The notes under the pieces: model-generated
What the model saw: the letters and a program-made list of their open reading frames with translations, nothing else
What the model was told of the DNA's origin: nothing
The model's database searches: none
Source: Acidimicrobium ferrooxidans
Lineage (GTDB): Bacteria > Actinomycetota > Geothermincolia > Fen-727 > Anoxymicrobiaceae
Assembly (NCBI GenBank): GCA_020723485.1
Contig: DYIU01000004.1
Span: 91,057-155,056 of the forward strand
Direction of reading: 5' to 3'
Length of the DNA: 64,000 nt
Shown here: positions 49,023 to 64,000 of the stretch, in pieces
Layout: the number at the start of each line of letters is the position of its first letter
How positions within the stretch are numbered: position 1 is the first letter of the stretch
Position numbers and translations under genes: made by a program

Positions 49023-52000
49023 TTACTTGCTGTTGCCGTAGACCGCGCGTTCGGCGACGACCGGCTTGCTGCTTGTAACCCTGGTCGAGACGTCCCAGCT
49101 GCCCGGCACCGTCTCTCCAGCGTTGAAGTTGATGCGCGAGTTCGGCGGCAGCGTCACCTTCGGACCCTGGACCTCGCCCCAGGCGAGCAGGTAGTCGATG
49201 TCGAGCTGCGCGGCCTCAGTCCCGGGGTTCTGGACCAGCACCCACGTCTCGAAGCCCGGTCCGGTCGAGCCCTCCGCCATGTACCACGATGTGGCTGTGG
49301 CCTGCGCTCCCACCGAGTCGTGCCCCCAGACGCGGTTGTTACCGTACATGGCCCGTTCCACCACGACCGGCCTGTTCGAATCGACCCTCGTCGAGACCTC
49401 CCATGTGCTGTGCACCACGTTGCCCGCGTTGAACGACCTGCGGGCCCGCGCGGGTATCGTGTCGATGGTCTGCGCGGCGGCGCCAGACGGGGTCATGTAC
49501 GTGAGGGTCACGTCAGCGGGCTGCGCGTTGGGATTCTGGACCACTATCCAGGTCTCGAAGCCCGGTCCGGTCGAACCCTCCGCCAGGTACCAGGTCGCCG
49601 AGAGGGTCGAGGCGCCGATGGAGTCGGTCCCCCACGTCCTGTCGCTGCCGTACATGGCCCGCTCCACCACGACCGGCTTACCCGCGTCGACCCTGGTGGC
49701 CACGTCGAACGTGCCCGGGAGGGTGTCGGCTATGTTGAAGGTCCGCCGCGACCCGGCCGGTACGCTCGCCTGGGGCCCGGCGACGGGTCCGGACATCGTC
49801 ATATAGGTCAGAGTCACAGTGGCGGCCGTGGTGTTCGGGTTCTGCACCACGACCCAGGTCTCGAAGCCGGCACCAGTGGAGCCCTCGGCAAGGTACCACG
49901 TGTCAGCCGGGGCCGAGGCGCCGATCGAGTCGTGGCCCCAGGCCCTGCTGGCCCCGTACATCGACCGCTCCACTATCACCGGGCTCGGGCAGGTCACCCT
50001 GGTCGAGACCTCCCAGGTGTTGGGCACGGTCGCGGCTACGTTGACCGCAGTCCGCGCTTCGGCCGGGATGCGGACCGTAGGCCCGCTCACCGGTCCCGTG
50101 AGGGTCATGAAGTCGAGCTTGGCGTCCACCGCCGCCGCGTTCGGGTTCTGCACCACCACCCAGGTCTCGAACCCGGGGCCGGTGCAGCCTTCCGCCAGGT
50201 ACCACGAGGTGGCGGGCGCGGATGAGCCCACGGAGTCCGTGCCCCACGCCCTGCCCGTGGCCGGGACCACTACCTCACCGAGCAGTATGTTGCCGTCGTC
50301 GCCGCAGACCCAGATGTGGCCGCCGTCAGGCATGGCGATCCCGTTCAGGTTGTTGAGCGAGCCGGTGGTCTGCGCCGTCCAGGTATTCCCGTCGTAGTAA
50401 CGAGCGACGCCTCCCTCACCGACGGCCCAGACGCGGTCGGTGCCCGCCGCTGCCACAGCGAAGAGGTCGGAGGTGGTGCCACTCGTCTGCTGGCTTACGG
50501 TCGTGGGGCTGCTGATGAACAGCACGTACCCGTCCGGTCCGACCGCCCAGACATGCGTGGCGTCGAGAGCGAACACGGAGTTGAGACCGTTGACCGCGTC
50601 CGTGTTATAGGTCTTCCAGGACGAGCCGTCGTAGAAGAGGAGCGACTTGCCGCTCCCGACGGCCCAGACGTGCTTGCGGTCCGAAGCCGAGACCCCGTTC
50701 AGCCATTGGGTCGTGCCGGAGGTCTGGCCGGCCCAGGCGCTGCCGTTATAGAAACGAACTGTGCCGGACGCGCCCACCGCCCAGACGTGGGACGCATCGA
50801 CGGCGGTGACGCTGAAGAGAGAGCTCGAGGTCCCGCTGTTCTGCAGGGACCAGCCGGTGCCGTTGAAGAATGCTATCTTCCCTCCCTCTCCCACCGCCCA
50901 CACGTGGGTGGCGTCGAGAGCGAAGACATCGAAGAACGGCCCGGTGGCACCGCTCGGCTGGGCGGACCAGGCCGCCCCGTTGAAGTGCAGGATGTCCCCA
51001 CCGGCCCCGACAGCCCAGGCCCTGTTCTGGTCGTAGGCGGAGACCCCGTAGATGTTGAAGGTCTCGCCGTGAGTCTGCCTGTGCCAGGTCCCGTTGTAGT
51101 AGAGTATCTCCCCCCCGTCGCCGACCGCCCAGACGTGGGTGGCGTCGAGGGCGAAGACGCTGTGAAGCGTCTTGGAGGAGCCGGTGAGCTGCTCGGCCCA
51201 GGTCGTGCCCTTGAAGAACAGGGCGGTGCCGTCGCACCCTACCGCCCAGACGCTCGTGGCGCTGGCGGCGGATACGTCCGTGAGCCAGCAGTCCTCCCCG
51301 CTGGCCTGCGTCGACCAGGTGGAGCCGTTGAACGAGAGGACGAAGTAGGTGAGCGTATGGCCGACCTGCCGGTAGCCGACCGCCCAGGCATGGGAGGCGT
51401 CGGCGGCGGTGACGCCGTTTATCCAGGCGTCGCTCATCCCGCTCGACTGGCCTTCCCACCGGGTCCCATTGTAGAAGAGAATCGTACCGTTGAACCCTGC
51501 CGCCCAGGCGTGGGTGGCGTCAACGGCCGAGACCGAGAGCAGGGTGTTCGTGGTGCCGGTGGTCTGCGACGACCAGCTGGTGCCGTTGAAGAACAGGGCC
51601 GTGCCGCCGGAGCCCACAGCCCAGACGTGGGTGGCGTCCAGCGCGAAGACCCCGTTGAGGCTGTTGACGGTCCCGCTCGCCTGTGTGGCCCACGCGGAGC
51701 CGTTGTAGAACAGCACCGTGCCGCTGGCGCCGACCGCCCAGACGTGTGTCGCGTCGACCGCGGATACGTCGGCGAGCGAGCTGCCGGTGCCGCTCGCCTG
51801 CGGCAGCCAGTACGTGCCGTTGTTGAAGAGGATGGTCCCGCCGGCCCCGACGGCCCATACGTGGCTCGCGTCCGGGGACGTCACGCCATAGAGGTCGTTA
51901 CCCTGCGGCAACGGGTTCTGCCAGCTCCAGGCGTAGTTGTCGGCCGCAAGGGACCCTGATGGTACCAGCGCAATCAGCAGGACAGCGACTGCTATTACTG

Positions 52001-52034
52001 CAACGGACGAAGAAAGCTTCACGGGCGGACGCAT
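49023..52034 (-). CDS. Giant secreted protein: WAVG propeller repeats plus AEG..GFETW repeats
   Basis: 1003 residues. Signal peptide 1-30 ('VAVLLIALVPSGSLA'). About residues 35-570 contain roughly 13 units of 38-42 residues with 'DATHVWAVG.(S/G)GT.LF(F/Y)NG' and 'W..Q(T/A)SGT', a BNR/Ycf48-like propeller pattern that may form two propellers. The rest is four units of about 90 residues starting 'WYLAEG(C/S)TG.GFETW'. ATG at 52034 follows GGGGAGGGG; a longer frame exists but is unsupported. The TAA stop sits in the type B flank. Confidence 0.85.
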   Translation of the reverse strand: MRPPVKLSSSVAVIAVAVLLIALVPSGSLAADNYAWSWQNPLPQGNDLYGVTSPDASHVWAVGAGGTILFNNGTYWLPQASGTGSSLADVSAVDATHVWAVGASGTVLFYNGSAWATQASGTVNSLNGVFALDATHVWAVGSGGTALFFNGTSWSSQTTGTTNTLLSVSAVDATHAWAAGFNGTILFYNGTRWEGQSSGMSDAWINGVTAADASHAWAVGYRQVGHTLTYFVLSFNGSTWSTQASGEDCWLTDVSAASATSVWAVGCDGTALFFKGTTWAEQLTGSSKTLHSVFALDATHVWAVGDGGEILYYNGTWHRQTHGETFNIYGVSAYDQNRAWAVGAGGDILHFNGAAWSAQPSGATGPFFDVFALDATHVWAVGEGGKIAFFNGTGWSLQNSGTSSSLFSVTAVDASHVWAVGASGTVRFYNGSAWAGQTSGTTQWLNGVSASDRKHVWAVGSGKSLLFYDGSSWKTYNTDAVNGLNSVFALDATHVWAVGPDGYVLFISSPTTVSQQTSGTTSDLFAVAAAGTDRVWAVGEGGVARYYDGNTWTAQTTGSLNNLNGIAMPDGGHIWVCGDDGNILLGEVVVPATGRAWGTDSVGSSAPATSWYLAEGCTGPGFETWVVVQNPNAAAVDAKLDFMTLTGPVSGPTVRIPAEARTAVNVAATVPNTWEVSTRVTCPSPVIVERSMYGASRAWGHDSIGASAPADTWYLAEGSTGAGFETWVVVQNPNTTAATVTLTYMTMSGPVAGPQASVPAGSRRTFNIADTLPGTFDVATRVDAGKPVVVERAMYGSDRTWGTDSIGASTLSATWYLAEGSTGPGFETWIVVQNPNAQPADVTLTYMTPSGAAAQTIDTIPARARRSFNAGNVVHSTWEVSTRVDSNRPVVVERAMYGNNRVWGHDSVGAQATATSWYMAEGSTGPGFETWVLVQNPGTEAAQLDIDYLLAWGEVQGPKVTLPPNSRINFNAGETVPGSWDVSTRVTSSKPVVAERAVYGNSK

Positions 52035-52083
52035 CGCAACCCCTCCCCCAGTACTTCTCGCAATATTGCCGCTATTATACATC

Positions 52084-52166
52084 GGGGTCAGACCATTTTC
52101 GTTTCGTAAGCCACATGTTCAACATGTTCAATAGAGTTGCTTATGGAACGAAAATGGTCTGACCCC
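52084..52166. repeat. Type B palindromic element, copy 3 (83 bp), fused to a coding sequence
   Basis: Arms 52084-52111 and 52139-52166; interior CACATGTTCAACATGTTCAA.. equals that of copy 1. Its right arm encodes the last residues and stop codon of the metallophosphoesterase gene. Confidence 0.92.
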
Positions 52167-53286
52167 ATTCGTGCAGGCGCGGCTCGTCGGTGACCTCGAC
52201 GACGGTATACCTGGACCTGGGCTCATCCGAGTCGCCGGTGACGTCGCTCGGATTGTTGAACCAGCTGCCGCAGTTCACAGCCTGTGTCCCGGAGAGCGGG
52301 AGCTCGAGCATGCCGGCCCTGTGAGTGTGCCCGTAGATGAAGTAGGCGGGCTTCTCGTCGTAGAAATGGTCGAGAAGGGCCTCAATCTCGACCGCGTTCT
52401 GCTCAATCGACGTGTCGCGGAATGCGGACACCCTGTATTCCTTCTCGAAGCCGAGGAGCCTCGCGGTCCTGCTCACCGTCCGGTAGAAGCGGTACCTGCC
52501 GTCCACCACCCCGGGCACCGCGGTGCTCATCGCCACCATCTCGTAATACGGTGAGAGGAAAGTCTCCATGTCGTCGAGCCCCACGGAGGGGTTCCTCTTG
52601 AGGAGAAACGCATTGAGGAACCTCCCCCTGGGCCGCCAGAGAGAGCGCTCAAAGAACCCGAGGAGGTGACCGTGTGTGAGGAGAGCGGTCCTGCCGCGTA
52701 CCGAGACCTGGTGCCAGGGATAAGTCATGAATAGCGGGACTTTAGCTCCGTTAGGCCGGAGTGACTCGAGCGCGGGGCAGTCCGCGACGAGCGGGATGGT
52801 GAGCTCGGGGGGCTCGAGGTCTCCCGCGCGCAGCCTCTTCATTACCTCTTCCTCGTAGTACAGGCGCACCACGTGGTGGTCGTGGTTGCCAGGGATGTAG
52901 ATCACGCGCCCGACGTTGTCGAGCTTGAGAAGCCCGCCCACGAGCTCCCTCGCCTGTTCGAGCGCGTCGGAAAAAGTGGTGGTCCAGAAATCGAAGATGT
53001 CCCCCAGCAGCACCAGCTCGTCGATGGTGCCCAACCCTCTCAAGCCATCGACGAGCAGCTTCCTGTTGTCGGAGGTGCCCAGCGCTCCGTAGTCGTTGCC
53101 GAAATGCGTGTCGGACACGACGACCAGGCGGTCGGCAACCGCCTCGGGCAGGGGCGCCTTGACCAGCGCCCGTGCGCCGGGTATGCGCGACGCGATGAGT
53201 TCTATGCGCCTCCGCGCCTGTTCGGCTATCCGCCGGCGTGATTCGCCGCCGGGGCTTCGGCCGTTCTTTGAGTGCTCCTCTTGCAT
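52141..53286 (-). CDS. Metallophosphoesterase, UDP-diacylglucosamine-hydrolase-like
   Basis: 381 residues. The calcineurin-type dimetal site is complete: 'VSDTHFG', 'LLGDIFDFW', 'IPGNHDHH', 'THGH' and 'YGHTHRAG'. Similar to LpxH-type and related phosphohydrolases; the substrate here is unknown. The C-terminus 'EWGQTIFVP' is not family sequence: it is translated from a type B repeat arm that replaced the original stop codon. The longer frame upstream of Met at 53286 is unsupported. The adjacent 53287-53559 region is AT-rich and shows no gene. Confidence 0.88.
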   Translation of the reverse strand: MQEEHSKNGRSPGGESRRRIAEQARRRIELIASRIPGARALVKAPLPEAVADRLVVVSDTHFGNDYGALGTSDNRKLLVDGLRGLGTIDELVLLGDIFDFWTTTFSDALEQARELVGGLLKLDNVGRVIYIPGNHDHHVVRLYYEEEVMKRLRAGDLEPPELTIPLVADCPALESLRPNGAKVPLFMTYPWHQVSVRGRTALLTHGHLLGFFERSLWRPRGRFLNAFLLKRNPSVGLDDMETFLSPYYEMVAMSTAVPGVVDGRYRFYRTVSRTARLLGFEKEYRVSAFRDTSIEQNAVEIEALLDHFYDEKPAYFIYGHTHRAGMLELPLSGTQAVNCGSWFNNPSDVTGDSDEPRSRYTVVEVTDEPRLHEWGQTIFVP

Positions 53287-53559
53287 GACGGTACATGATT
53301 GTACCGCAACGCGCGGGGCGGGTCGCTCTGCCTTGAATCCGCCGCGCGGTCTGTTGAATTTGTTAACTATTGCGCAACTGGTGTCGGACATTTGCATCAC
53401 AAAAGATATCTTTCTTCTAAATTAACCACATAAACAACATGAGCAACAGGTCAGGGGGCTTCGAGAGTCTGGAATGCGCGGGTTCAGTTGGCGATGGTTC
53501 ATCAGTCGACTGTTGTTGATGCTGTTATGCAAACGTCTGACACCTGAGGGCGACCGGCC

Positions 53560-54303
53560 TTAGATGAGGCCGGTCTTCTCGAGCGCGGTGACAATCGCGG
53601 CGCGCGCCGGGCAGTCGGGAAGCTCCAGGAAAGAGAGCTCCTCGCCGTCGAACCTCCTGACGGTGTCGTCCTCGGGCACCCAGCCCAGCACGTCGAGGTC
53701 GGTGCCGCGCTCTACCGCCCCGGCCTCGTCCGCGTCGCGGGCCCTGTTAACCAGCAGGCCCGTCCCCTGGCCGCCTATCATCTGGTCGGCGACCCCTTTT
53801 ATCGTCCGTGCAACCTTGACTGCCTTCGCGGACGTATCGGACACCAGCAGCACGTAATCGACAGAGCTCAGCACCTTGCGGTTCACCTGCTCGATGCCCG
53901 CCTCGGCGTCGATTATGGTCGCGTCGAACCTGCCCGCCAGGCCCTCAATGGCGTCCTTCAGGATGACGTTGACCTTGCAGTAGCAGCCGGCGTCCTCGGG
54001 CCGGCCGATGGAGAGCAACGCCAGGTTCCCCTGCTCGGTCAGAGCCTCGGCCAGGAGGTAGTCGAGCGACACGGCGAGGTCTTTCTCGTCACGCCCACCC
54101 GCCTTGACCTCCTCGATTATCTCCTTGCGGACGTCGTTCAGCGTCTTTCGCGGCTCGAGCCCGAGCGCGACCGCGAGCCCGCCTGCCGGGTCCGCGTCGA
54201 CCACGAGCGCCCGCCGGCCGTCCTCGCGCGACAGGGCCTGGGCGGCGACGGCGGATACCGTGGTCTTGCCCACCCCGCCCTTTCCGCAGACCGACAGGAT
54301 CAT
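53560..54303 (-). CDS. CooC-type nickel-insertion ATPase
   Basis: 247 residues. MinD/SIMIBI P-loop 'CGKGGVGKTT' at 6-15, 'VDADPAGGL' (Asp motif) and 'DAEAGIEQVNRKVL'. Cys107-Tyr-Cys109 ('AGCYCKVNVI') corresponds to the CxC motif with which CooC1 dimers bind Ni or Zn. CooC proteins mature the nickel clusters of CO dehydrogenase/acetyl-CoA synthase. Coupled by ATGA to the acetyl-CoA-synthase-like gene. Last gene of the seven-gene operon. No CO dehydrogenase is in the window, so its client is likely the neighbouring protein. Confidence 0.85.
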   Translation of the reverse strand: MILSVCGKGGVGKTTVSAVAAQALSREDGRRALVVDADPAGGLAVALGLEPRKTLNDVRKEIIEEVKAGGRDEKDLAVSLDYLLAEALTEQGNLALLSIGRPEDAGCYCKVNVILKDAIEGLAGRFDATIIDAEAGIEQVNRKVLSSVDYVLLVSDTSAKAVKVARTIKGVADQMIGGQGTGLLVNRARDADEAGAVERGTDLDVLGWVPEDDTVRRFDGEELSFLELPDCPARAAIVTALEKTGLI

Positions 54304-55019
54304 CCGCTCCCCTTCCCTTCCGCGAGCTTCTGCCTTATCTTCTTCAGGTCCATCACTGTGTCGCAGACGTCCTGGTACTCGCAAGTCTCGCAGTCGTAGT
54401 TCTCCTCGGAGTACATTTTCATCATGGCGTCGACAATCCTCTGCGCTCCGGCCGCGGCGCCTGCGAGCTTCTTCACCTCGTCCACCCCGGCGGTGACGAA
54501 AACCACCTGCGCCCCGGACACCCCGTCGAGGCTCTTGAGCGAGTCGATGAGGGCGGCGCCGAGGTCGACGAGCGAGAAACCCCTGCCGGCCGCGTCCCGG
54601 GACACCCTGCACCAGACGCTCTGCCTGCTCGGCATGGTCCGGACCGAGAACCCCGCAAGCCTTGTGTCGTACACCGCGTCCCGGACGTCCCGGTACGACT
54701 CGTACTCGTCCGGGAACGTCCCCCCGGCGATGACCACCTGGCCGAACGGAACACTGGCGCTTGCGGCTTCAGCCACGTCGGGGCCCACCAGGGTGACCTT
54801 CCCGTCCTCCACTCCCCCGCCCTCGCTCCATATCAAGAGGGATATCGAAGCCGCCGACGGGTTGCCGAGCTCGAGCGCAGTCTCTTCCTCCAGGACCAGG
54901 GAGGGCCCGTCCGGCCAAGGCTCGCGCGCGGAGCAGTCGAAGTCGCGGCCGCTCCCGCTCCCGCGCCATCCGTCCAGGAGGTTCCTGACCTCGGTGAGCT
55001 GTTCTTCGAATAGGGCCAT
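54300..55019 (-). CDS. Stand-alone protein resembling a domain of acetyl-CoA synthase beta (CdhC/AcsB)
   Basis: 239 residues. 'VEDGKVTLVGPDVAEAASAS' and the following helix-rich region with 'SVWCRVSRDAAGRGFSLVDL' and 'AQVVFVTAGVDEVKKL' follow the pattern of the middle domain of CODH/ACS beta subunit. The A-cluster part of full ACS is absent. The C-terminus adds a Cys motif C210-x2-C213-x5-C219 ('CETCEYQDVC') and a short helix. Function unknown; the CooC partner and operon place suggest a metal-linked role with the dehydratase. Homology judged by motif only. Confidence 0.65.
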   Translation of the reverse strand: MALFEEQLTEVRNLLDGWRGSGSGRDFDCSAREPWPDGPSLVLEEETALELGNPSAASISLLIWSEGGGVEDGKVTLVGPDVAEAASASVPFGQVVIAGGTFPDEYESYRDVRDAVYDTRLAGFSVRTMPSRQSVWCRVSRDAAGRGFSLVDLGAALIDSLKSLDGVSGAQVVFVTAGVDEVKKLAGAAAGAQRIVDAMMKMYSEENYDCETCEYQDVCDTVMDLKKIRQKLAEGKGSG

Positions 55020-55054
55020 GTCGATCAGAACCGGGCCGCGGGAAAAGGCGGCCC

Positions 55055-55840
55055 TCAGGAATCGTCGAATTCATCCATCCCGGCGAGCAGCGCGGCCCCT
55101 ATGGCCGCCGCGAGCCTGGGATCGAACGGGAATTCGTAGTAAGTGCCTTCGAGTTTCTCCTTCACGCCCGCCGCCACCTTGTTGATCCTCGCGACACCAC
55201 CGGTCAGCGTGTACTTGTCCCCGCTCGAGAACCTGCGAGCCTGGGCCGCCACTATGCTCGAGACCGCGTCGCACAGGCCCGCCACTATGTCGGCCGGGTC
55301 CTCACCCTCGTTGACGTGGGTTATGACCTCGCTCTCGGCGAAGACCCCGCACTGGCTGCTGATGGACACGGGTTTCTGCGCGCCCTGCGCCGCCTCGTCT
55401 ATCTCGTCTATGCCTACCCCGACCGCGTGGCTCATCACCTCGAGGAACCGCCCCGACCCCGAGGCGCACTTGTCATTGCGCATGAAGTTGACCACGTCAC
55501 CGTCCTCGTCTATGAGTATCGACGCGATGCCCTGGCCCCCGACGTGCACTATCATATTTATCTCGGGGATCATGTACGCGCCGGCGGCCGCGACGCACGT
55601 CACCTCGTCCTCGGTGAAGTCGAGGTCCCGGAGCAATTCGGCCCCGCTGCCGGTGCCAGCCCGTGAGTCCACGCGGTCCATACCCATCCCCGCCTCGAGG
55701 AGGACCGAGCTCACCAGGGCGTCTATCTCGTTCGCCACGTTCCCGGTGGTGTCCATAACGCCGCTCGCCACGAGCTTGTCGTCGTCGAGTATCACGACCT
55801 TCGAGAGCAGGTTGCCGATGTCTATTCCCATCGTTATCAC
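55055..55840 (-). CDS. BadF/BcrA/HgdC-family activase 2 (CoA-enzyme activator), altered ATP site
   Basis: 261 residues. ASKHA fold: 'GIDIGNLLSKVVILDDDKLV', 'TGTGSGAELL' region. The Fe4S4 ligands are Cys125 ('NDKCASGSGRF') and Cys164 ('SSQCGVFAESEV'), one cluster per dimer, as in HgdC. The canonical DIGGQD ATP motif reads 'HVGGQG', both Asp changed. Such proteins use ATP to push an electron into the dehydratase/reductase. GTG start, overlapping the first activase's stop. Possibly the BcrD-like non-identical subunit. Confidence 0.88.
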   Translation of the reverse strand: MITMGIDIGNLLSKVVILDDDKLVASGVMDTTGNVANEIDALVSSVLLEAGMGMDRVDSRAGTGSGAELLRDLDFTEDEVTCVAAAGAYMIPEINMIVHVGGQGIASILIDEDGDVVNFMRNDKCASGSGRFLEVMSHAVGVGIDEIDEAAQGAQKPVSISSQCGVFAESEVITHVNEGEDPADIVAGLCDAVSSIVAAQARRFSSGDKYTLTGGVARINKVAAGVKEKLEGTYYEFPFDPRLAAAIGAALLAGMDEFDDS

Positions 55841-56655
55841 AGGGCACCACCCGCTCTCTGCGCGAACACCGCGGCGCCGTAAGCGCCCATAAGCTGCGGG
55901 TCGAGGTGGGGGGCGAACATCCGCACTCCCAGTGTTCTCTCGAGCTCTGACTTGACCGCCACGTTCTTCGCTACCCCGCCGGTCATCATCACTTCCTTCT
56001 CCCAGCCGACCCGGCGGACTAGCGCCATCACCCTGTCCGCCATCGACCGGCAGGTGCCGGCCGCCAGGTCGGCCACGTCATAGCCCTTCTGGAGGTAGTG
56101 GAGCACCTCCGTCTCGGCGAATATGCTGCAGCGCGAGCTGAGCTCGACCTTGTTCCTGGCCCGCAGCGCCACCCCGCCGAGGTCCTCGAAGGAGACGCCG
56201 AGCGTCCGGCTCATCACCTCGAGGAACCGGCCGGTGCCGGCCGCGCACTTGTCGTTCATGACGAAGTTGACCAGGTCTCCCCTCTCGTCCACGCGGATGA
56301 CCTTGGCGTCCTGTCCGCCGATGTCAATCACCGTGCGCACCTGGGGCGCCAGCGTGAACGCCCCCAGCCCGTGGCACGATATCTCGCTCACGTTGTCCTG
56401 GGCCATGCCCTCGCCCTGCACCTTGTCGCGCCCGTACCCGGTGCTTACGCAGTAGGTGATGTCGTCCCAGCCGAGGTCGTACTCCTCGAGAAGCTGCCCC
56501 ATCACGGTGCGCGCCGAGTCGAGCGGGTTCGGTTTCACCCGGATGCTCTTTGACAGCAGCCTGACGCCGATGGTCTTGAGCATCAGAGTCCGGCCGTCCT
56601 CTATGAGGACCGCCTGAGCGGTCAGTGAGCCGACGTCTATACCGGCATATGGCAT
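55837..56655 (-). CDS. BadF/BcrA/HgdC-family activase 1 (CoA-enzyme activator)
   Basis: 272 residues. All key motifs are canonical: 'GIDVGSLTAQAVLIEDGRT', 'STGYGRD', 'DIGGQDAKVI' (Asp111, Asp116), Cys137 in 'NDKCAAGTGRF', Cys176 in 'SSRCSIFAETEV' and 'MTGGVAKN'. Expected to form an ATP-driven [4Fe-4S] electron donor for 2-hydroxyacyl-CoA dehydratase or benzoyl-CoA reductase. Five bases after the second large subunit. Its pair with the altered activase resembles the two different ATPase subunits of benzoyl-CoA reductases. Confidence 0.92.
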   Translation of the reverse strand: MPYAGIDVGSLTAQAVLIEDGRTLMLKTIGVRLLSKSIRVKPNPLDSARTVMGQLLEEYDLGWDDITYCVSTGYGRDKVQGEGMAQDNVSEISCHGLGAFTLAPQVRTVIDIGGQDAKVIRVDERGDLVNFVMNDKCAAGTGRFLEVMSRTLGVSFEDLGGVALRARNKVELSSRCSIFAETEVLHYLQKGYDVADLAAGTCRSMADRVMALVRRVGWEKEVMMTGGVAKNVAVKSELERTLGVRMFAPHLDPQLMGAYGAAVFAQRAGGAL

Positions 56656-56660
56656 CCTTG

Positions 56661-58079
56661 CTACCCTTCCGTCCTGGCTCTTGCCCTGGGCTTTACCTTC
56701 TTCTTCTTCGCCACCACGTTCTTTATGAACTCGTCTATGTTAGCCTGGAGCGTGGCCACCGGGGTCATCCCGCTCAGCCACGCGTCACCCTGCAGGGTCA
56801 GCACCGGCGCCCCGATCCTGTCCATCAACTCCTTCTGGACGATCGAGATAACGCTCCAGGTCTGCTTGCAGGCGTGGTGCCCGCAGAAGACGCCGCAGTT
56901 GGCGTCGAGCATCTTCGCCATCGTTATCGCGTCGTCTATCCAGGCCAGCGACATCGATTCGGCGCCCATCTGCTTGGTCATGGGGAAGGTCCTGGCCTGC
57001 AGGCAGATGCCGTCGAGCATCGTCTCCCTGCTCTCGGTGGAGATAGGCTCGGGGAAGAAGAGGTCGAGCACGTCGAAGAGCTGCGTGTAGCCCTGCTCCT
57101 CCATCCAGTTGAACATCCCGCCGAAGTCTATGTAGTAGCTCGTGTACAGCCAGCCGACGCGGGCGACCTCCTTCTCGGCCGGGTACTCCCCGGATGCCAG
57201 GCGCCTCTTCGCCTCGTCCACCATGATCTGCATGGCCCTCTGCGCCTCCTCGCGCCCCCACTGGGTGAAGCGGCAGCCGTAGATGAACATGTTGTAGATG
57301 TTGGGTACGGGACACGGCGAATTCTTCTTCAGCTCCCAGAGCTGGTGGTGCAGCTCTGAGGACCGGTTGCAGTACTCCACTACCTCGCGAAGGCGGTCTT
57401 CCTTAATCTTCTCGCCCAGGAAGTCCTCGAGCTGTTCCACCAGCGCGAAGAAGTTCCTCCGGTACTGTTCGATGCCTCTCTCGGAGTCGTCCACCGGCTT
57501 CTCCAGGATGAACTGCGGGATGCCCAGGTAGTTCGAGACGAACTCGTGGATCTTGGAGTTCGCGTCGCAAGCCCCGGCCGTGCACGAGATTATCGCGTCG
57601 GCCTCGAAGTCGTGCCCGCTCAGCATCGAGCCCAGCTCGATGGTGCTGGCCGAGCAGAGGTGGTCGGGGATGCCGATGCCCATGGCGTAGTCCCAGTAAC
57701 GGTGTCCCTTACCCTCCGAGGCGTTGCCGGCCAGCGTGCTCAGTATCTCGCTGGTGAGCGGCACCGCGCTCTCGAACGCGTGCACCAGCTCAGGCACGAA
57801 GTTGAACGGCACCAGGATGACCTTCTTGCCCTTGGACTTTGCTTCCTTGGCGTTCTTCAGCCATACGCCGACCGTCTTCAGGAATGCCAGCGCAGCGGTG
57901 CGGACCCGCGGATGCAGGAAAGCCTCCAGGGTGTGAGCCACGTCCGGCGGCATCACGTCTATGACGCCGCGGGCCTCCTCGTCACTTATCTCGTCGGGGA
58001 CGTCGAGCACTATCTCGAACAGCCCCTGTATCCGCTCGAACAGCCCAGAGCCGGGCGGCAGCTTCGTATCAACCGGCAT
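56661..58079 (-). CDS. 2-hydroxyacyl-CoA dehydratase / benzoyl-CoA reductase family, large subunit 2
   Basis: 472 residues, paralogue of the next gene upstream. 'VPFNFVPELVHAFESAVPLT', 'DHLCSASTIELGSMLSG', 'CTAGACDANSKIHEFVSNYL', 'GIPQFILEKP' and 'CGVFCGHHACKQTWSVISI' are shared with it. Size fits HgdA/BcrB-type subunits. ATG at 58079 with AAGGAGGAG is clearly the start; it overlaps the paralogue's end by 11 bases. The C-terminus is Lys/Arg-rich. Likely binds a [4Fe-4S] cluster with the smaller subunit; the substrate cannot be told from sequence. Confidence 0.88.
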   Translation of the reverse strand: MPVDTKLPPGSGLFERIQGLFEIVLDVPDEISDEEARGVIDVMPPDVAHTLEAFLHPRVRTAALAFLKTVGVWLKNAKEAKSKGKKVILVPFNFVPELVHAFESAVPLTSEILSTLAGNASEGKGHRYWDYAMGIGIPDHLCSASTIELGSMLSGHDFEADAIISCTAGACDANSKIHEFVSNYLGIPQFILEKPVDDSERGIEQYRRNFFALVEQLEDFLGEKIKEDRLREVVEYCNRSSELHHQLWELKKNSPCPVPNIYNMFIYGCRFTQWGREEAQRAMQIMVDEAKRRLASGEYPAEKEVARVGWLYTSYYIDFGGMFNWMEEQGYTQLFDVLDLFFPEPISTESRETMLDGICLQARTFPMTKQMGAESMSLAWIDDAITMAKMLDANCGVFCGHHACKQTWSVISIVQKELMDRIGAPVLTLQGDAWLSGMTPVATLQANIDEFIKNVVAKKKKVKPRARARTEG

Positions 58080-59535
58080 TTGCTCCTCCTTCAACACGGT
58101 CCGCGGCGCGACGCCGCACTTTCCTCCTGTCAGAGCGTTTCGGAACTACCACGTTCCTTATGAATTCGTCTATCTCTTTCTGAATAACGGACATCGGCGT
58201 CGTCCTCTTGAGCCACGAATCGCCCTGAACCGAGAGCATCGGTATCCCAGCGCGGTTCATCAGCTCGCTGCGCAGGATGGAGGCTACGCTCCAGGTCTGC
58301 TTGCAGGAGTGGTGACCGGAGTAGATGGCGCAGTCGGCACCAAGGTCCTTCGAGGCCCAGAGGGCGTCCTCGAGCCAGCACATCGACATCGAATGGCCTC
58401 CGACCTGCCTGGTCATGGGCATGTTCCAGGCCTCGGTGGCCAGTCCGTAGATCATGGATTCGCGGCTCGAAGTGTCGATCATCCCGGGGAAGAGCAGGTC
58501 GAGGCCGTCGCCGAGGTACGTGTAGCCCCGCTCCTCCATCCAGTTGAAGAGACCTGCCAGGTCGAAGTAGTAGCTGGTGTACGTGAGGAGGCAGCGCGCC
58601 ACCTCACGGTCTGCCGGGTACGCGCCCTCCTTCAGGCGCCTCTTCGAGATTTCTATCATGGTCTGCACGCACTTTATGGCCTCTTCTGTCCCCCACATCG
58701 TGTACCTGGCGCCGTACGTGAAGAGGGCGAAGAGGTTCGGCACAGGGTCCGGGACCGCCTTGTGCAGGTCCCAGAGCTCCATCATCAGCGTGTTGCCCTG
58801 GTTCACTCTCTCGCACGTCCGCCGCAGCTTCTCCTCGGTCAGCTCCTCTCCCAGGAACTCCTCGAGGTCGGTGATCAGGGTCTCGAAGTTCTTCTGGTAC
58901 TGCTCGCGCCCGCGCTCGGTGTTCTCGACCGGCTTCTCCAGCACGAAGAGCGGGATGCCGTGATAGTTGGCGACCAGCTCGTGGGTCTTGGAGTTGATGT
59001 CGCACGACCCTACCGCGGCGCTGATGATGGCCTGGGGCTGGAAGTCGTCGCTCCCCAGCATAGAGCCCACCTCGACCGCGTTGGCGCTGCAGATGTGGTC
59101 GGGCAGGCCGAGCCCGAGCGCCATCTCGAAATAGCGCTCTCCTCTCCCCTCGAGCGCGATGACCCCCAGCGACGAGAGCACCTCACTCGTTATCGGGTAG
59201 GAGTTGTCGAAGCAGTGGACCAGTTCCGGCGGGAAGCAGAAAGGCACCAGGATCGACTTCTTGCCCTCCAGGGGGGCCGTCTTGGCGTCGGCGAGCCACT
59301 TGCACGCCATCTTCATGAACGCCAGGCTCCCCTCGCGGTTGCGTGGGATGAGCATCGCCTCGAGCGAGGCGCGCGCGTCCGCCGGAAGGACCGACATCAG
59401 CCCTTCGACCTCCTCGTCGCTCATCACGTCGGGAAGCTTCTCGATTATCTCGAACAGGCCGGTGACGCGGTCGAACAACCCCTGCTTGAAACCCCTGGCC
59501 AGCGCATCTTCCTTCCTGAGGACGGTCATGCTCAT
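58069..59535 (-). CDS. 2-hydroxyacyl-CoA dehydratase / benzoyl-CoA reductase family, large subunit 1
   Basis: 488 residues. Family motifs: 'VPFCFPPELVHCFDNSYPIT', 'DHICSANAVEVGSMLGSDDF', 'AVGSCDINSKTHELVANYHG', 'IPLFVLEKPVENTERG', 'CAIYSGHHSCKQTWSVASIL'. Basic Arg/Lys-rich C-terminal tail. It resembles the neighbouring large subunit throughout, so a gene duplication is likely. Overlaps the small subunit's stop at its start. Expected to form with it the oxygen-sensitive catalytic core. Confidence 0.88.
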   Translation of the reverse strand: MSMTVLRKEDALARGFKQGLFDRVTGLFEIIEKLPDVMSDEEVEGLMSVLPADARASLEAMLIPRNREGSLAFMKMACKWLADAKTAPLEGKKSILVPFCFPPELVHCFDNSYPITSEVLSSLGVIALEGRGERYFEMALGLGLPDHICSANAVEVGSMLGSDDFQPQAIISAAVGSCDINSKTHELVANYHGIPLFVLEKPVENTERGREQYQKNFETLITDLEEFLGEELTEEKLRRTCERVNQGNTLMMELWDLHKAVPDPVPNLFALFTYGARYTMWGTEEAIKCVQTMIEISKRRLKEGAYPADREVARCLLTYTSYYFDLAGLFNWMEERGYTYLGDGLDLLFPGMIDTSSRESMIYGLATEAWNMPMTRQVGGHSMSMCWLEDALWASKDLGADCAIYSGHHSCKQTWSVASILRSELMNRAGIPMLSVQGDSWLKRTTPMSVIQKEIDEFIRNVVVPKRSDRRKVRRRAADRVEGGANAG

Positions 59536-60683
59536 GACTTACCCCCGATCCTTTCGAGAAATGCCTGCACCCTGGTCCTTATGCGGCCTATGTCGGCGCG
59601 CGAGCCGTACTCCTTCTCGAGCTGGAGCACCGGTATGTCGCGCTTCTCGAGGTCGAGCCTGAGCTGGACGTTGTCCACCCCGTGGACGTCGCAGAACTTG
59701 TTGTGCATGACCATGACGCCGTCCACGTCCGCTTTCTTGATCTCGTTCAGCACGAAGTCGCGGCGGCGCGGGAAGTCCTCGTACATCCTCGGGCAGAGCA
59801 TGTCCTTGAGATAGGTGTCGGCGAGCGACTTGACGAGGTCGCCCTCGGTGCTGACCGGGCTCCAGAAGGCGCGGGCCCCGTAGCAGAGGGCATCCGTTAC
59901 CACCAGCGCTCCGACGTCCTCAATGGCGCGCACCAGGTCGAGCTCGTCGGTCGCGGCCCCGCAGAGCATCAGCCTGGCCCGGTAGCCGGTGACGCCCGTT
60001 CCCGTGCGCTCGGCGATGGCCTTGTCCGCGAGCTCGATGAAGTCATCGTACGGCACGGCCGACGCGAGCAGGAAGAGCGAGAGGGCCTCAGCGCCGGTGA
60101 ACGAGGGGCTGGAGCCCTCGCGCATCGAGTATATCTGGCGCAGGCGGTCCCGGATGGCCTCCTGCCTGGCGATGGCGGCCTTCAGCTTGTCATCGGTAAT
60201 CTCAACGCCGAAGTGCTTCTCGATGGCTTCCTTGAAGAAGACCAGCTCTTCGACGTAGTAGTTCATCGCATCCTCGGTGGTGAGGTGCGGTACCTTGACG
60301 TAGTGGAAGAAGTCGGCCGGCTTCACATACATCCAGTTCTCGAACATGCCTCGCAGGTGGTCGCACCCGTTGGTCTCGATGAACCCGTCGAGGAAATCGT
60401 AAGTGCCGTCGAGGCCCAGCTGGAGGCACGAGCGGCAGAAAGAGCAGTTGAAGCGAGCCAGGTGCGCGTCGGCTATCTCCGTGTTCGGGTTGCCGAGCGC
60501 CCTGATGCGGTACGGCAGTATGCCCGCAGCGTCGATTATCTCCGGCGGTGTGGTGACGCACGCGTACCCCAGCACCTTGCCGCCCGATTCCTTCCACTTC
60601 TTGACGTAGTCGTTCTCGACGACCTCCGAGACCTTGTTCACAGCGTCCATAGCGCTTCCGACCTTAACGCTTGCCACGTCCAT
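59532..60683 (-). CDS. 2-hydroxyacyl-CoA dehydratase / benzoyl-CoA reductase family, small (BcrC/HgdB-like) subunit
   Basis: 383 residues, the normal size for HgdB/BcrC. Cys80, Cys83, Cys86 ('NCSFCRSC') and Cys107 ('NGCDHLRGMFENW') include the likely [4Fe-4S] ligands; 'VVTDALCYGARAFW' and 'HNKFCDVHGVDN' are further family motifs. It is first in the operon. ATG at 60683 is used; AAGAGG is only two bases before it, so the in-frame GTG at 60677 (spacing eight) could be the real start. Confidence 0.88.
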   Translation of the reverse strand: MDVASVKVGSAMDAVNKVSEVVENDYVKKWKESGGKVLGYACVTTPPEIIDAAGILPYRIRALGNPNTEIADAHLARFNCSFCRSCLQLGLDGTYDFLDGFIETNGCDHLRGMFENWMYVKPADFFHYVKVPHLTTEDAMNYYVEELVFFKEAIEKHFGVEITDDKLKAAIARQEAIRDRLRQIYSMREGSSPSFTGAEALSLFLLASAVPYDDFIELADKAIAERTGTGVTGYRARLMLCGAATDELDLVRAIEDVGALVVTDALCYGARAFWSPVSTEGDLVKSLADTYLKDMLCPRMYEDFPRRRDFVLNEIKKADVDGVMVMHNKFCDVHGVDNVQLRLDLEKRDIPVLQLEKEYGSRADIGRIRTRVQAFLERIGGKS

Positions 60684-60758
60684 CACCTCTTATCCCGGAT
60701 TGCCTCCGATTGTAGCCTTCCAGGCGCCGAGCGCCTTGATCTGGGTCATGAGTCATAA

Positions 60759-60783
60759 AATAAGACGTGACCCCAGGTTATGA
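60759..60783 (-). repeat. Dispersed GGGGTCA repeat, type D copy 2
   Basis: Minus-strand reading TCATAACCTGGGGTCACGTC then TTATT. It includes the end of the helical-protein gene (its TAA stop is within it) and matches the copy after clpX. Confidence 0.7.
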
Positions 60784-62067
60784 TTTCTTTATAAGGCCGA
60801 ACAGGTTCTTCGCGACCTTCCATGCGTTGTGGCCCGCGACCTTCAATATCGCCAGGGCCGTGCCGGCGCTCGCGAACAGGCCGTCGATGACCCCGCCGCT
60901 GACGGTGCGGGCGGCCTTCTCGAGCTCGACCGCGTCCAGTGTCGAGAAGAGCCTCTTCAGGTAGTCCGCGACCCCCCCGGGGCTGGCCGACCTGTTGAAT
61001 CCCGCGAGCATCTCGTTCACCCTGCGTCCGACCTCCTCGGGACCGAGTGCGATCTGGATGCCCGAGTTGGCCAGGGCCGCCTGCTTGAGGTCGTTCATCG
61101 CTCCGCGGAGCACGAGCTCGAGCTGCTCGGTGTTGACCACCTTCAGCACGTCAGTGAGCATCTCCCTGCCCAGGTCGGGGTTCGCCTCCCTGAACCGCAG
61201 GGACAGCCCTATCAACGAGTCGACGACGTGCCCCATCTCGACCACGTCCAGGTCCTCGCGCGAGCGCTCACCGAGGCTCACCAGGAGCTCGTCGGACCAC
61301 GCCATCATCTCGCGTACGCCGGAACCGACGATGCGGGTCAGCGAGTTAACGAGCGAGTTGACCGCTTGCGCCAGCAGCAGCACCGCCGCGGGGTCCCGCG
61401 CGATGAGCTCCGCCAGGACGTCGGCCACTGTCTCGAGGTCCTCGCCCAGGGCCGCGAGTGCACCCGTGGCCTCCTCCATCTCGAGGTTGTCGAGGACCCG
61501 CTTCATGAAGTCGGAGAAGACCGCCCGGAAACGAGGCTCGTCGCCGCCCAGGATGTAGTTGCCGGCGTGCAGCAGGTTGACCTGCCTGGAGACCTCCGAG
61601 AGCACGTGGCCTATAGTCTCCGCGTCGAGCGCCGTAAGCACATTGAACAGTGCGCTGGCTAGTATCTCGGGCGGCAGGTCCAGGTTGTCCACCAGCGCGG
61701 CCAGCACCCTGACGATGCTGTTGACCACGGGCGGCAGGGCCCCCACCAGGTTCGCTATCACCACCGGGTTGGCAGTCACTTCCTCGAGCGCCTTCGACGC
61801 TCCGTCGGCGCCGTAGCCCGCCAGGGCGGAGACCGCCTCGCGCAGCTTGCCGAAGTCAATGTCGGCGAACGCCGCTTCCAGGGCCGGGTACGCGTCCCGC
61901 GCAAGGTCCGGGTACTCGCCGCGCGCCGCCATCATCGCCAGCGAGAACCTGTTGACCCGCTCCGCGAGCTCCTTGCCGTCGTAAGCGGAGACCGCTTCCC
62001 TGATGGCGGCCGCCGCCTGCTCCGGCGATAAGGTCCCAGCTTCCTTAACCGCCTCGTTTGCGCTCAA
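60778..62067 (-). CDS. Large helical protein, unknown function (group member 1)
   Basis: 429 residues, predicted almost wholly helical and rich in Leu, Val, Ala: 'YGADGASKALEEVTANPVVIANLVGALPPV', and repeated 'L..VL..V..L' helices. No TM pattern strong enough to call and no motif known to me. TTG start with GAGGTGATG. Followed on the same strand by two related smaller genes and, upstream, an acyl-CoA dehydrogenase. An ARM/HEAT-like or lipid-binding helical fold would fit; this is only inference. Confidence 0.65.
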   Translation of the reverse strand: MSANEAVKEAGTLSPEQAAAAIREAVSAYDGKELAERVNRFSLAMMAARGEYPDLARDAYPALEAAFADIDFGKLREAVSALAGYGADGASKALEEVTANPVVIANLVGALPPVVNSIVRVLAALVDNLDLPPEILASALFNVLTALDAETIGHVLSEVSRQVNLLHAGNYILGGDEPRFRAVFSDFMKRVLDNLEMEEATGALAALGEDLETVADVLAELIARDPAAVLLLAQAVNSLVNSLTRIVGSGVREMMAWSDELLVSLGERSREDLDVVEMGHVVDSLIGLSLRFREANPDLGREMLTDVLKVVNTEQLELVLRGAMNDLKQAALANSGIQIALGPEEVGRRVNEMLAGFNRSASPGGVADYLKRLFSTLDAVELEKAARTVSGGVIDGLFASAGTALAILKVAGHNAWKVAKNLFGLIKKS

Positions 62068-62088: not shown

Positions 62089-62742
62089 TCAGATTGTGTC
62101 AGCCACGCCGCCCGCCCTGCGGCCGGCGAGGCCGGTGATACCTGATACAACCCACCGAACGGCCGAACGCGCGAGCGCGAGCGCCGCGCGCAGCACCTTG
62201 CGGCCTTCGACCTGCCCGAGGGTGTCCCTGAGAAGGTCCGGGTTCTTCTGCACGGCTTTCACGATGGCGTCCGCCCCCGCGTTCACCGCGTTTCCCACCC
62301 CTACCGCAGCGAGCTCGGCGAACCTGATGTTCTCGAGCAGGGGGCTGAAGACGGCGGGGTACTGTTTCAAGAGCTCGAGGTCGATGCCCGAACCGACCTG
62401 GGTCACGAACTGGTCGAGCAGTCCGCCGGGGAAGTTGTTCATCTGCGTCCCCAGCTCGAGCACCGCGGCGGCCAGGTAGTTGATCAACTCCGGGATGTTC
62501 CCTACGAAGCTCAGGGAAAGCTCGACGTCCTCCCAGACAAAGGTGCGCACGAGCTCGCGGGCGTCCTCCGGGTCGAAGCCCTTGGAGTTGGTCTTGATTA
62601 TCTCGAGGAACGCCGGTGTCCGGATTATCTCCCGCAGGACGCGGGCGCCCGCGCCGCCCCGGTTCTCTCCCGGCGCCTCGGCCGGCGACCCCCCACCGGT
62701 TACTGCAACAAAATGACCTGACCCCAATGTTGCGTTTTCCAT
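62089..62742 (-). CDS. Helical protein (group member 2) whose N-terminus is encoded by a GGGGTCA repeat
   Basis: 217 residues. Residues 1-13 ('MENATLGSGHFVAV') are translated from a type A repeat arm (62703-62738). From about residue 30, 'RVLREIIRTPAFLEII', 'FDPEDARELVRTFVWEDVEL' and 'MNNFPGGLLDQFVTQ' align with the next gene ('RVLRELLRTPRFKKTV', 'LDPENAGLLVKTLMWEDPEF', 'LSNFPPGLLASFI'). The ATG overlaps the upstream stop (TGATG). The longer open frame upstream is a shadow. Function unknown. Confidence 0.7.
   Translation of the reverse strand: MENATLGSGHFVAVTGGGSPAEAPGENRGGAGARVLREIIRTPAFLEIIKTNSKGFDPEDARELVRTFVWEDVELSLSFVGNIPELINYLAAAVLELGTQMNNFPGGLLDQFVTQVGSGIDLELLKQYPAVFSPLLENIRFAELAAVGVGNAVNAGADAIVKAVQKNPDLLRDTLGQVEGRKVLRAALALARSAVRWVVSGITGLAGRRAGGVADTI
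62703..62738 (-). repeat. Type A GGGGTCA half-palindrome inside a coding sequence
   Basis: Minus-strand reading AAAACGCAACATTGGGGTCA then GGTCATTTTGTTGCAG. A single complete arm without its partner, starting just after the upstream gene's stop, and giving the N-terminus of the following gene. Confidence 0.88.
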
Positions 62743-63485
62743 CAGGAAGCCTCCTGGGTTGTTCCGGCGCCCGCCAGGGCGTCCCTGCCGGCGTCGACCA
62801 GCGGGGCGACGACCGACTGCATGAAGTCGGGGTTCTCGGCCGCTATCCTTTTCACGCCTTCCGCGAGCCTGCCGACCGCGAGGTTCATCTCCGACCCCTC
62901 GCGCGACGCCTCCCGTCCCAGCGCCGCCGCCAGGGTCCCCACCGCGGGCAGCAGTGCCTCCACGAAGCCCTCGGCGGAGACCGGGGCCGAGCCCGGAGCC
63001 GCGGATACACCCGTAACGCCGGCGGCGAACCTCCGCAGGACGTCGGAGAGCGAGTCCAGGAGGGCCTCGCCGCCGCCCACCCGGACCTCGGCAAGGAGGC
63101 GCGCCGTGTCGCCCAGCGCGCGCCCGAGGCGCTCCGCGTCGATGCCGTCCAGGATTATACAGATGAAACTGGCCAGGAGCCCCGGCGGGAAGTTGGAGAG
63201 CTGCGCGACCAGCTCTCCGAGACCGTTCACCCCGGCGTTTACGACGTCGGGAGCGGCCCCGAGCAGGCTCAGGAAGAACTCGGGGTCCTCCCACATCAGA
63301 GTCTTGACCAGCAGCCCGGCGTTCTCCGGATCGAGCTCCCTTATCAGTATCCCGACAGTCTTCTTGAACCTGGGAGTCCGCAGGAGTTCGCGGAGGACCC
63401 TGCTGGTCCCCTCGATAGGTCCCCTGCGCGGCACCGTCGTCGCTTCCATATGCCCACCGCCTCTATCAGGTCGCGAGTCCGTCAT
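62742..63485 (-). CDS. Helical protein (group member 3), unknown function
   Basis: 247 residues, paralogue of the previous gene from 'SRVLRELLRTPRFKK' on. An N-terminal disordered stretch is followed by Leu/Ala-rich helices and a low-complexity linker ('GVSAAPGSAPVSAEG'). ATG with GGGGGTG upstream; another Met 12 residues in is possible. It is 19 bases after the acyl-CoA dehydrogenase, so the group probably forms one operon with that enzyme. Confidence 0.7.
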   Translation of the reverse strand: MTDSRPDRGGGHMEATTVPRRGPIEGTSRVLRELLRTPRFKKTVGILIRELDPENAGLLVKTLMWEDPEFFLSLLGAAPDVVNAGVNGLGELVAQLSNFPPGLLASFICIILDGIDAERLGRALGDTARLLAEVRVGGGEALLDSLSDVLRRFAAGVTGVSAAPGSAPVSAEGFVEALLPAVGTLAAALGREASREGSEMNLAVGRLAEGVKRIAAENPDFMQSVVAPLVDAGRDALAGAGTTQEAS

Positions 63486-63504: not shown

Positions 63505-64000
63505 CTAGAGCGTCTCGCACTCGTAGAACCAGCGCGCCACCTCCATCTGGCAGAGCTGCTTTCCGCCCATCCACAGCTGGACTATCTTGAGGTCCCTCCA
63601 ATGCTTCTCCACGTCGTGGGCGCGGTCGCTCCCGTGCGCCCCCATAAGGTTCATGACCCTCTTCAGGTCCTCGACCGCCTTGTCGCACGCGAAGTACTTA
63701 TAGGCCCGTCCCTTGGCCACTATCTCGTCGGACCACCTGTCGCCGTAGAGGTCGGGCCGGTCCAGCATCCTCGCGTACTGGTAGGTCAGCACCCGGATGA
63801 TGTCCACGTCGCGGGCGAAATCGGCGAGGACGCCCGCCGCGTCGTCGTTCTCCTTGAGCGGCTTGCCGCGGAAGGTCGTCTCCTCGGCGAAATCCTTCAG
63901 TATCTCAAAGACGTTCATGAGCGAGCCGCTAACGAACGAGATGCTGCCTAGGTTGCCCAGCGATATGACCTCCTTGAAGTACATCGCGTCGAGGCCGGGG
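63505..64000 (-). CDS. Acyl-CoA dehydrogenase, C-terminal part (N-terminus outside window)
   Basis: The frame is open to the window edge, where it reads 'PGLDAMYFKEVISLGNLGSI'. The rest is the helical C-terminal FAD domain: 'ARDVDIIRVLTYQYARMLDR', 'GRAYKYFACDKAVEDLKRVM', 'LMGAHGSDRAHDVEKHWRDL', 'KIVQLWMGGKQLCQMEVARW'. It lacks the usual catalytic-Glu region, which lies upstream of the window. An FAD enzyme of CoA-ester oxidation, first in the minus-strand run that includes the helical proteins. Confidence 0.85.
   Translation of the reverse strand, partial: PGLDAMYFKEVISLGNLGSISFVSGSLMNVFEILKDFAEETTFRGKPLKENDDAAGVLADFARDVDIIRVLTYQYARMLDRPDLYGDRWSDEIVAKGRAYKYFACDKAVEDLKRVMNLMGAHGSDRAHDVEKHWRDLKIVQLWMGGKQLCQMEVARWFYECETL

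Follow-up and report, generated by a model that had tools for sequence, protein, structure and literature searches.

The seven adjoining genes A to G may well encode an ATP-driven double-cubane acyl-CoA reductase complex in which F and G, probably together with E, act as a shared maturation or activation module; we consider the chances of this reading to be about even. The family assignments, the operon, the conservation of the cluster ligands, the co-inheritance of the genes and the difference between a single-copy F and a multi-copy A are supported by sequence comparison. A search of open-access papers found no description of this gene combination, which has likely not been described before.

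Layout of the operon and its surroundings

The window, i.e. the whole 64-kb stretch of DNA that was analysed (64,000 nucleotides), lies on contig C2; the genome, that of an uncultured anaerobic actinobacterium, measures 3.36 Mb. Within it, the seven genes follow each other in the order A-B-C-D-E-F-G on the minus strand. A and B overlap by 4 bp and B and C by 29 bp, C and D are separated by 5 bp, D and E overlap by 4 bp, E and F are 35 bp apart, and F and G overlap by 4 bp. An earlier note on this DNA had predicted seven minus-strand genes of particular family types, with junctions that overlap or measure less than 40 bases. All of these types were found by means of Pfam and NCBIfam models (HGD-D, BcrAD_BadFG, CdhC, and ParA/MinD-type ATPase), and the measured junctions range from -29 to +35 bases. 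The same note had regarded these genes as a seven-gene operon. The seven genes are indeed there, but the unit is longer: it runs on upstream through up1, up2, up3, ACAD1 and ACAD2 and comprises about 12 genes, namely two acyl-CoA dehydrogenase-like genes, followed by up3 to up1 and then by A to G.

The three upstream genes, all on the minus strand, code for helical proteins. No Pfam family matches the product of up1 (60778..62067; 429 aa) over the cut-off; up2 (62089..62742) and up3 (62742..63485) are paralogues, with 38% identity between their products. Of ACAD1 (63505 to 64770, minus strand; 421 aa), only the 3' part (63505..64000) lies inside the window. ACAD2 (64797-66029) is located outside, as is a gene for a TetR-type regulator (66113-66793), which stands beyond ACAD2 at the upstream end of the operon.

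Three further genes are found on the other side of G. A calcineurin-like phosphoesterase gene (52141-53400, minus strand) comes after G; close relatives retain it there in six loci (L041-L044, L049, L051), which is no longer the case in more distant ones. Another gene (49023-52082, minus strand) codes for a 1019-aa protein that is built from many repeats with an HVWAVG motif and whose C-terminal half is repetitive; it is likely a beta-propeller protein, secreted or exposed at the surface. On the plus strand, a 385-aa protein (47776-48933) begins with a winged-helix-like segment and contains many cysteines of the 4Fe-4S type. Many relatives encode homologues of this protein near the loci of A or F (two copies in L041), so that a role in the pathway of the A-G operon is possible.

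The catalytic core

The product of A (59532..60686, minus strand; 384 aa; Pfam HGD-D, 5.9e-86) is a BzdN-like subunit. Its best match among solved structures is BzdN (8s02_B, 7.8e-58), followed by HadC (1.8e-39), MbdN and DCCP. In the BzdNO structure of 2025, the [8Fe-9S] cluster of BzdN is bound by the six cysteines C36, C73, C100, C263, C293 and C327 (PMC11971306). All six are present in A, where C43, C81, C108, C268, C298 and C332 align with them, and these double-cubane ligands are invariant in 16-17 relatives. Arg53, Arg267 and His330, which surround the distal sub-cluster, are also kept in A; according to the alignment, Arg290 of BzdN is not conserved. A possible selenocysteine, suggested by an in-frame TGA in A of four relatives, was rejected by a comparison of coordinates, as these matches end at the terminal stop.

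B (58069..59535, minus strand; 488 aa; PF06050 (HGD-D), 1.3e-45) and its paralogue C (56661..58097, minus strand; 478 aa; PF06050 (HGD-D), 6.8e-41) code for catalytic subunits of the HgdA/BzdO type. The two belong to a single family, whose members are extended at the N-terminus (by about 70-100 residues in C) and whose profile matches DCCP, HadB and BzdO. In B, the cysteines C149, C178 and C411 align with the ligands of the catalytic cluster, and the glutamate of HadB has its counterpart in E118; these four residues and N181 are invariant. C likewise keeps the three cysteines and the glutamate. Asn181 occupies, in B and C, the position of His131, the acid/base residue and proton donor of BzdO. 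The predicted structure of B (pLDDT 83) superimposes on HadB with a TM score of 0.82, on DCCP with 0.77-0.78, and on BzdO with 0.75.

As judged from these alignments, the core seems to be a member of the BCR/HAD superfamily, an ATP-driven double-cubane enzyme whose active-site chemistry is its own. Ligand-level conservation and synteny make the assignment of the A-B-C system to the reductase type a strong one. At the same time, the fold of B and C is nearer to that of HadB than to that of BzdO, and dehydration is therefore possible beside reduction. None of the curated cut-offs for named members of the superfamily was reached by A, B or C.

The system was also compared with the individual members of the superfamily. 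With the Bzd-type class I benzoyl-CoA reductase of Aromatoleum (BzdNOPQ), the system shares the six [8Fe-9S] cysteines in A/BzdN, two different ATP-binding activases, and a subunit with a three-cysteine catalytic cluster. The three cysteines of BzdO are kept, but of the two residues that are catalytic in that enzyme, Glu65 and His131, the latter is replaced by Asn in B and C. Moreover, the catalytic subunit frequently comes as two paralogues, which are extended at the N-terminus, and the acyl-CoA dehydrogenase-like pair, the helical proteins and F-G are added. The curated Bzd models TIGR03190, TIGR03191 and TIGR03192 yielded 194, 18.9 and 198 bits, which is below their cut-offs of 453.8, 448.6 and 380.2 bits, respectively. 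DCCP and DCCP-R resemble A and B in sequence and fold, and A in the six-cysteine cluster site. However, DCCP is a homodimer with one activase, whereas A and B/C are different subunits, B/C being always encoded beside A; the score of A with the DCCP model NF040772 is 187.7 bits compared to a cut-off of 350 bits.

The third relative, (R)-2-hydroxyisocaproyl-CoA dehydratase (HadBC) with its activator HadI, has in common with the system the fold of B/C, the three cysteines, the catalytic glutamate and the type of activase. In amino-acid fermenters, genes for HGD-D proteins, activases and acyl-CoA dehydrogenases are found together. Given this and the fact that B is nearest to HadB by fold, one might regard the cluster as an ordinary operon for a 2-hydroxyacyl-CoA dehydratase or enoyl-CoA reductase, similar to the reductive branch of HadIBC-AcdB, next to which F and G happen to lie without any relation to it. 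We judge this to be the least probable of the explanations considered. A carries the six-cysteine signature of BzdN, whereas HadC, in the alignment with A, has no cysteine at the positions of C43 and C268 and lacks the double-cubane set. The curated HadB and HadC cut-offs were missed (32-48 versus 750 bits for B/C; 150.7 versus 700 bits for A). Two activases and F-G are present, and the linkage and co-occurrence of F-G with these genes across phyla, which are described below, lie far above chance.

The two activases

D (55837..56655, minus strand; 272 aa; PF01869, 8e-63) and E (55055..55840, minus strand; 261 aa; PF01869, 5e-43) both code for activases of the BadF/BcrA type. D matches the structure of HgdC (1hux, 7e-61), and E that of a HadI-type activase (4eht, 1.4e-40). 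Both proteins keep the two cluster cysteines, which are conserved in relatives. E is the activase that travels with F-G.

A cut-down ACS domain and a CooC-like ATPase

The product of F (54300..55019, minus strand; 239 aa) matches the CdhC family PF03598 with an E-value of 5e-12 and a score of 46 bits, compared to a cut-off of 24 bits. With its AlphaFold model (pLDDT 87), Foldseek retrieved matches to acetyl-CoA synthase (ACS) only (E about 1e-11, TM(query) about 0.6), and the fold is that of A2, the middle domain of ACS. When F is aligned with 13 full ACS sequences (AcsB/CdhC), its CxxC coincides with the first CxxC of the A-cluster. A third cysteine follows five residues later, and then the protein ends. 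The three cysteines of this C-terminal CxxCx5C motif are invariant in 21 relatives, and so is R138, which stands at what we take to be the place of the ACS arginine linked to CoA. F has no A1 domain; in the ACS alignment, both F and all of its homologues also lack A3 and the A-cluster ligands of the GCGCF motif. In a phylogenetic tree, F forms a clade separate from true ACS. A complete ACS is encoded on another contig of the same genome, where it belongs to a normal Wood-Ljungdahl cluster that includes a CooC of its own. A function of F as acetyl-CoA synthase was consequently rejected: there is neither an A3 domain nor a full A-cluster, and the real ACS is found elsewhere. The description of F as "ACS-beta-like" in the earlier note thus applies to the fold and not to the enzyme, as only the middle domain is present. 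In one relative (G191), the full ACS gene carries an apparent intein exactly at the A-cluster GCGCF motif (L036).

G (53560..54303, minus strand; 247 aa) codes for a P-loop ATPase of the CooC/MinD type. Its likely start is position 54303, where an ATGA overlaps the stop codon of F, and not position 54612, at which the mechanically determined open reading frame begins. The best PDB match is CooC (3kje, 1.2e-13), with the CxC motif aligned. The deviant Walker A motif GKGGVGKT and the CxC (GCYC in G) are invariant in 26 out of 26 homologues. CooC proteins bring nickel to CODH (PMC6006190). In contrast to CooC and AcsF, the nickel-insertion ATPases with which G shares these motifs, G is encoded beside an HGD-D/activase operon and not beside CODH/ACS, the CODH/ACS cluster of the genome having a second CooC.

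The retained A2 domain with a CxxC at the A-cluster position, the invariant R138, and the membership of G in the family of nickel chaperones are consistent with a catalytic role of F. Loaded with metal by G, F would then act as a miniature ACS, whose nickel-thiolate site handles an acyl-CoA thioester, and would be the first nickel-dependent member of the superfamily. This is unlikely, since the A3 domain and the GCGCF ligands are absent. Furthermore, a single copy of F per genome stands against many catalytic modules, a ratio more readily expected of a helper than of a subunit. For the same reason of the missing catalytic domain, the extra metal-dependent step that the earlier note had considered for the ACS-like protein has become the less likely of its two suggestions.

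Conservation of the gene set

Relatives with these genes are recorded as Actinomycetota and include Candidatus Solincola, Geothermincola and Geohydrothermomicrobium, which suggests that the window comes from a Geothermincolia-like class. The synteny was assessed in 26 distinct loci, including that of the window. F adjoins G in 26/26 loci, and E directly precedes F in 24 of them. HGD-D genes belong to the same cluster as F-G in 18/26 loci, and two further loci are cut by contig ends. In the remaining six (family f4), F-G stand apart from HGD-D genes; all six genomes have A elsewhere. The grouping of the last two genes with the dehydratase genes, as proposed in the earlier note, is therefore borne out. 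The complete order ACAD2-ACAD1-up3-(up2)-up1-A-B(-C)-D-E-F-G stands in L043, and partly or as a whole in L044, L049, L059, L060 and L097. Homologues of up1 occupy the same position in all six of these loci, and occur in paralogous loci as well. Several genomes of the Solincola type encode a long-chain-type acyl-CoA ligase of about 615 residues near F-G (L046, L050, L054, L059), which is a hint to an acyl substrate. In L051 (10701-12030), a gene for a C-type catalytic subunit is split over several frames and represents either a decaying paralogue or assembly errors.

The co-occurrence of A (E <= 1e-60) and F (E <= 1e-40) was determined in all 31 genomes of the Geothermincolia-like class. A was found in 24 and F in 24 of these genomes; 23 contain both and six contain neither (Fisher p = 6.4e-5, uncorrected for relatedness). 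A occurs without F in G240 only, which is 82% complete, and F without A in G598 only, where the contig is cut inside B. Synteny and genome-wide co-occurrence with A rule out that F and G are chance neighbours.

The copy numbers of the two genes differ. Each F-bearing genome has a single F, whereas A is present in one to four copies. The additional A loci repeat the unit ACAD2-ACAD1-up-A-B/C, some of them with paralogues of D and E, and none of their clusters contains F or G. A single-copy F, a multi-copy A and extra A loci devoid of F-G suit a module that acts in trans. From this distribution we infer that F-G is a shared helper module and not a stoichiometric subunit.

Among 299 genomes of a phylum sample labelled Bacillota, F was detected in two only (G298 and G459), in both with E and G beside it. 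The corresponding loci are L098 and L097, respectively; G459 was reached via a genome recorded as Bacillota. The gene set thus recurs, as the earlier note had left to be examined, not only in relatives but also in a second, Bacillota-labelled phylum. In the tree, F of G298 and G459 nests with Geothermincola F (support 99/95). This position within the Geothermincola clade suggests that the whole cluster spread to the Bacillota-labelled lineage by horizontal transfer. A search of plasmid sequences gave no match.

The main rival to a maturation role starts from the pattern of linkage, which is tightest for E-F-G and not for A-F-G (24/26). It takes F as a redox partner whose CxxCx5C motif would hold a [4Fe-4S] cluster that relays electrons from ferredoxin to E or, conversely, accepts electrons of low potential from this activase. 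G would serve as a gate that depends on ATP, and E-F-G as a whole would be an electron-injection module. The invariant cysteines of F are of the Fe-S type and E is a separate, more divergent activase, which is in agreement with such a relay. On the other hand, a CooC-type protein with a metal-binding CxC is unexpected in a simple electron chain, and there are paralogous D-E operons without F-G. To our knowledge, the activases characterized so far accept electrons from ferredoxin without a partner resembling F. We regard the relay as possible but doubtful.

The acyl-CoA dehydrogenase-like pair and the metabolic context

ACAD1 matches the Pfam acyl-CoA dehydrogenase domains and acyl-CoA dehydrogenases in the PDB. 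No other member of the set is as well conserved from one phylum to the other (72-77% identity), and ACAD1 stands before A in distant relatives, including those of the second phylum. At the position of the catalytic Glu of MCAD, most members have Met or Leu, and one paralogous group has Glu; a second glutamate, E267, is nearly invariant. ACAD2 is divergent and has no recognisable base. It is possible that ACAD1 and ACAD2 form a two-subunit enzyme with one active subunit. The idea that electrons of this pair are forced to the reductase for want of an ETF was dismissed, as two EtfA genes are present elsewhere in the genome.

For the ring-opening hydrolase of benzoyl-CoA degradation (OAH/BamA), the best score with TIGR03200 in the genome was 83 bits compared to a cut-off of 464 bits, and the search returned general crotonases only. 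In view of this result and of the replacement of His131, classical benzoyl-CoA degradation is not supported. The genomes of the class otherwise look like those of acetogens.

Proposed role of the complex

In the proposed mechanism, the activases D and E would spend ATP to drive electrons into A, more precisely into its [8Fe-9S] double cubane. From there the electrons would reach the catalytic cluster of B (or C), a [4Fe-4S] centre held by three cysteines, at which a substrate bound to CoA would undergo reduction or dehydration. ACAD1, ACAD2 and the helical proteins, as parts of the same unit, probably handle the same acyl-CoA pool. F-G, probably with E, would constitute a maturation or activation module derived from the ACS/CooC system. 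G may be an ATPase that chaperones metal via its CxC, and F a cut-down ACS middle domain that presents CxxCx5C as a candidate metal or Fe-S site; together they would charge a metal centre in enzymes of this family, or repair it. The types of the clusters, the path of the electrons, the maturation role and the metal are inferred from these comparisons.

The role assigned to F-G is based on co-inheritance, on copy number, and on the known roles of CooC-type proteins. Of the possibilities raised in the earlier note, the evidence agrees best with a new assembly partner: F and G are adjacent to each other, follow E, and co-occur with A genome-wide. We know of no need of DCCP or Bzd-type enzymes for ACS- or CooC-like helpers; the need for F-G is therefore unexplained, which counts against the maturation role. 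BzdNO was produced in E. coli (PMC11971306).

A more specific proposal is that E-F-G is a dedicated heterometal module, probably for nickel, which was assembled from pieces of CODH/ACS and is needed by several paralogous double-cubane acyl-CoA reductases per cell. We put this forward tentatively and consider it rather unlikely. If true, it would be the first link between nickel-type metal chaperoning and the superfamily of ATP-driven Birch-type reductases.

Among the reductions in biology, those driven by this superfamily include some with the lowest potentials; how the double cubane of these enzymes is assembled is an open question. A conserved single-copy pair that is derived from ACS and CooC and co-inherited with these enzymes offers a candidate, concrete and testable, for a factor in maturation or activation. 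The repeated unit of acyl-CoA dehydrogenase-like, helical, A and B proteins suggests that the Geothermincolia-like class has an acyl-CoA pathway that has so far gone unrecognised.
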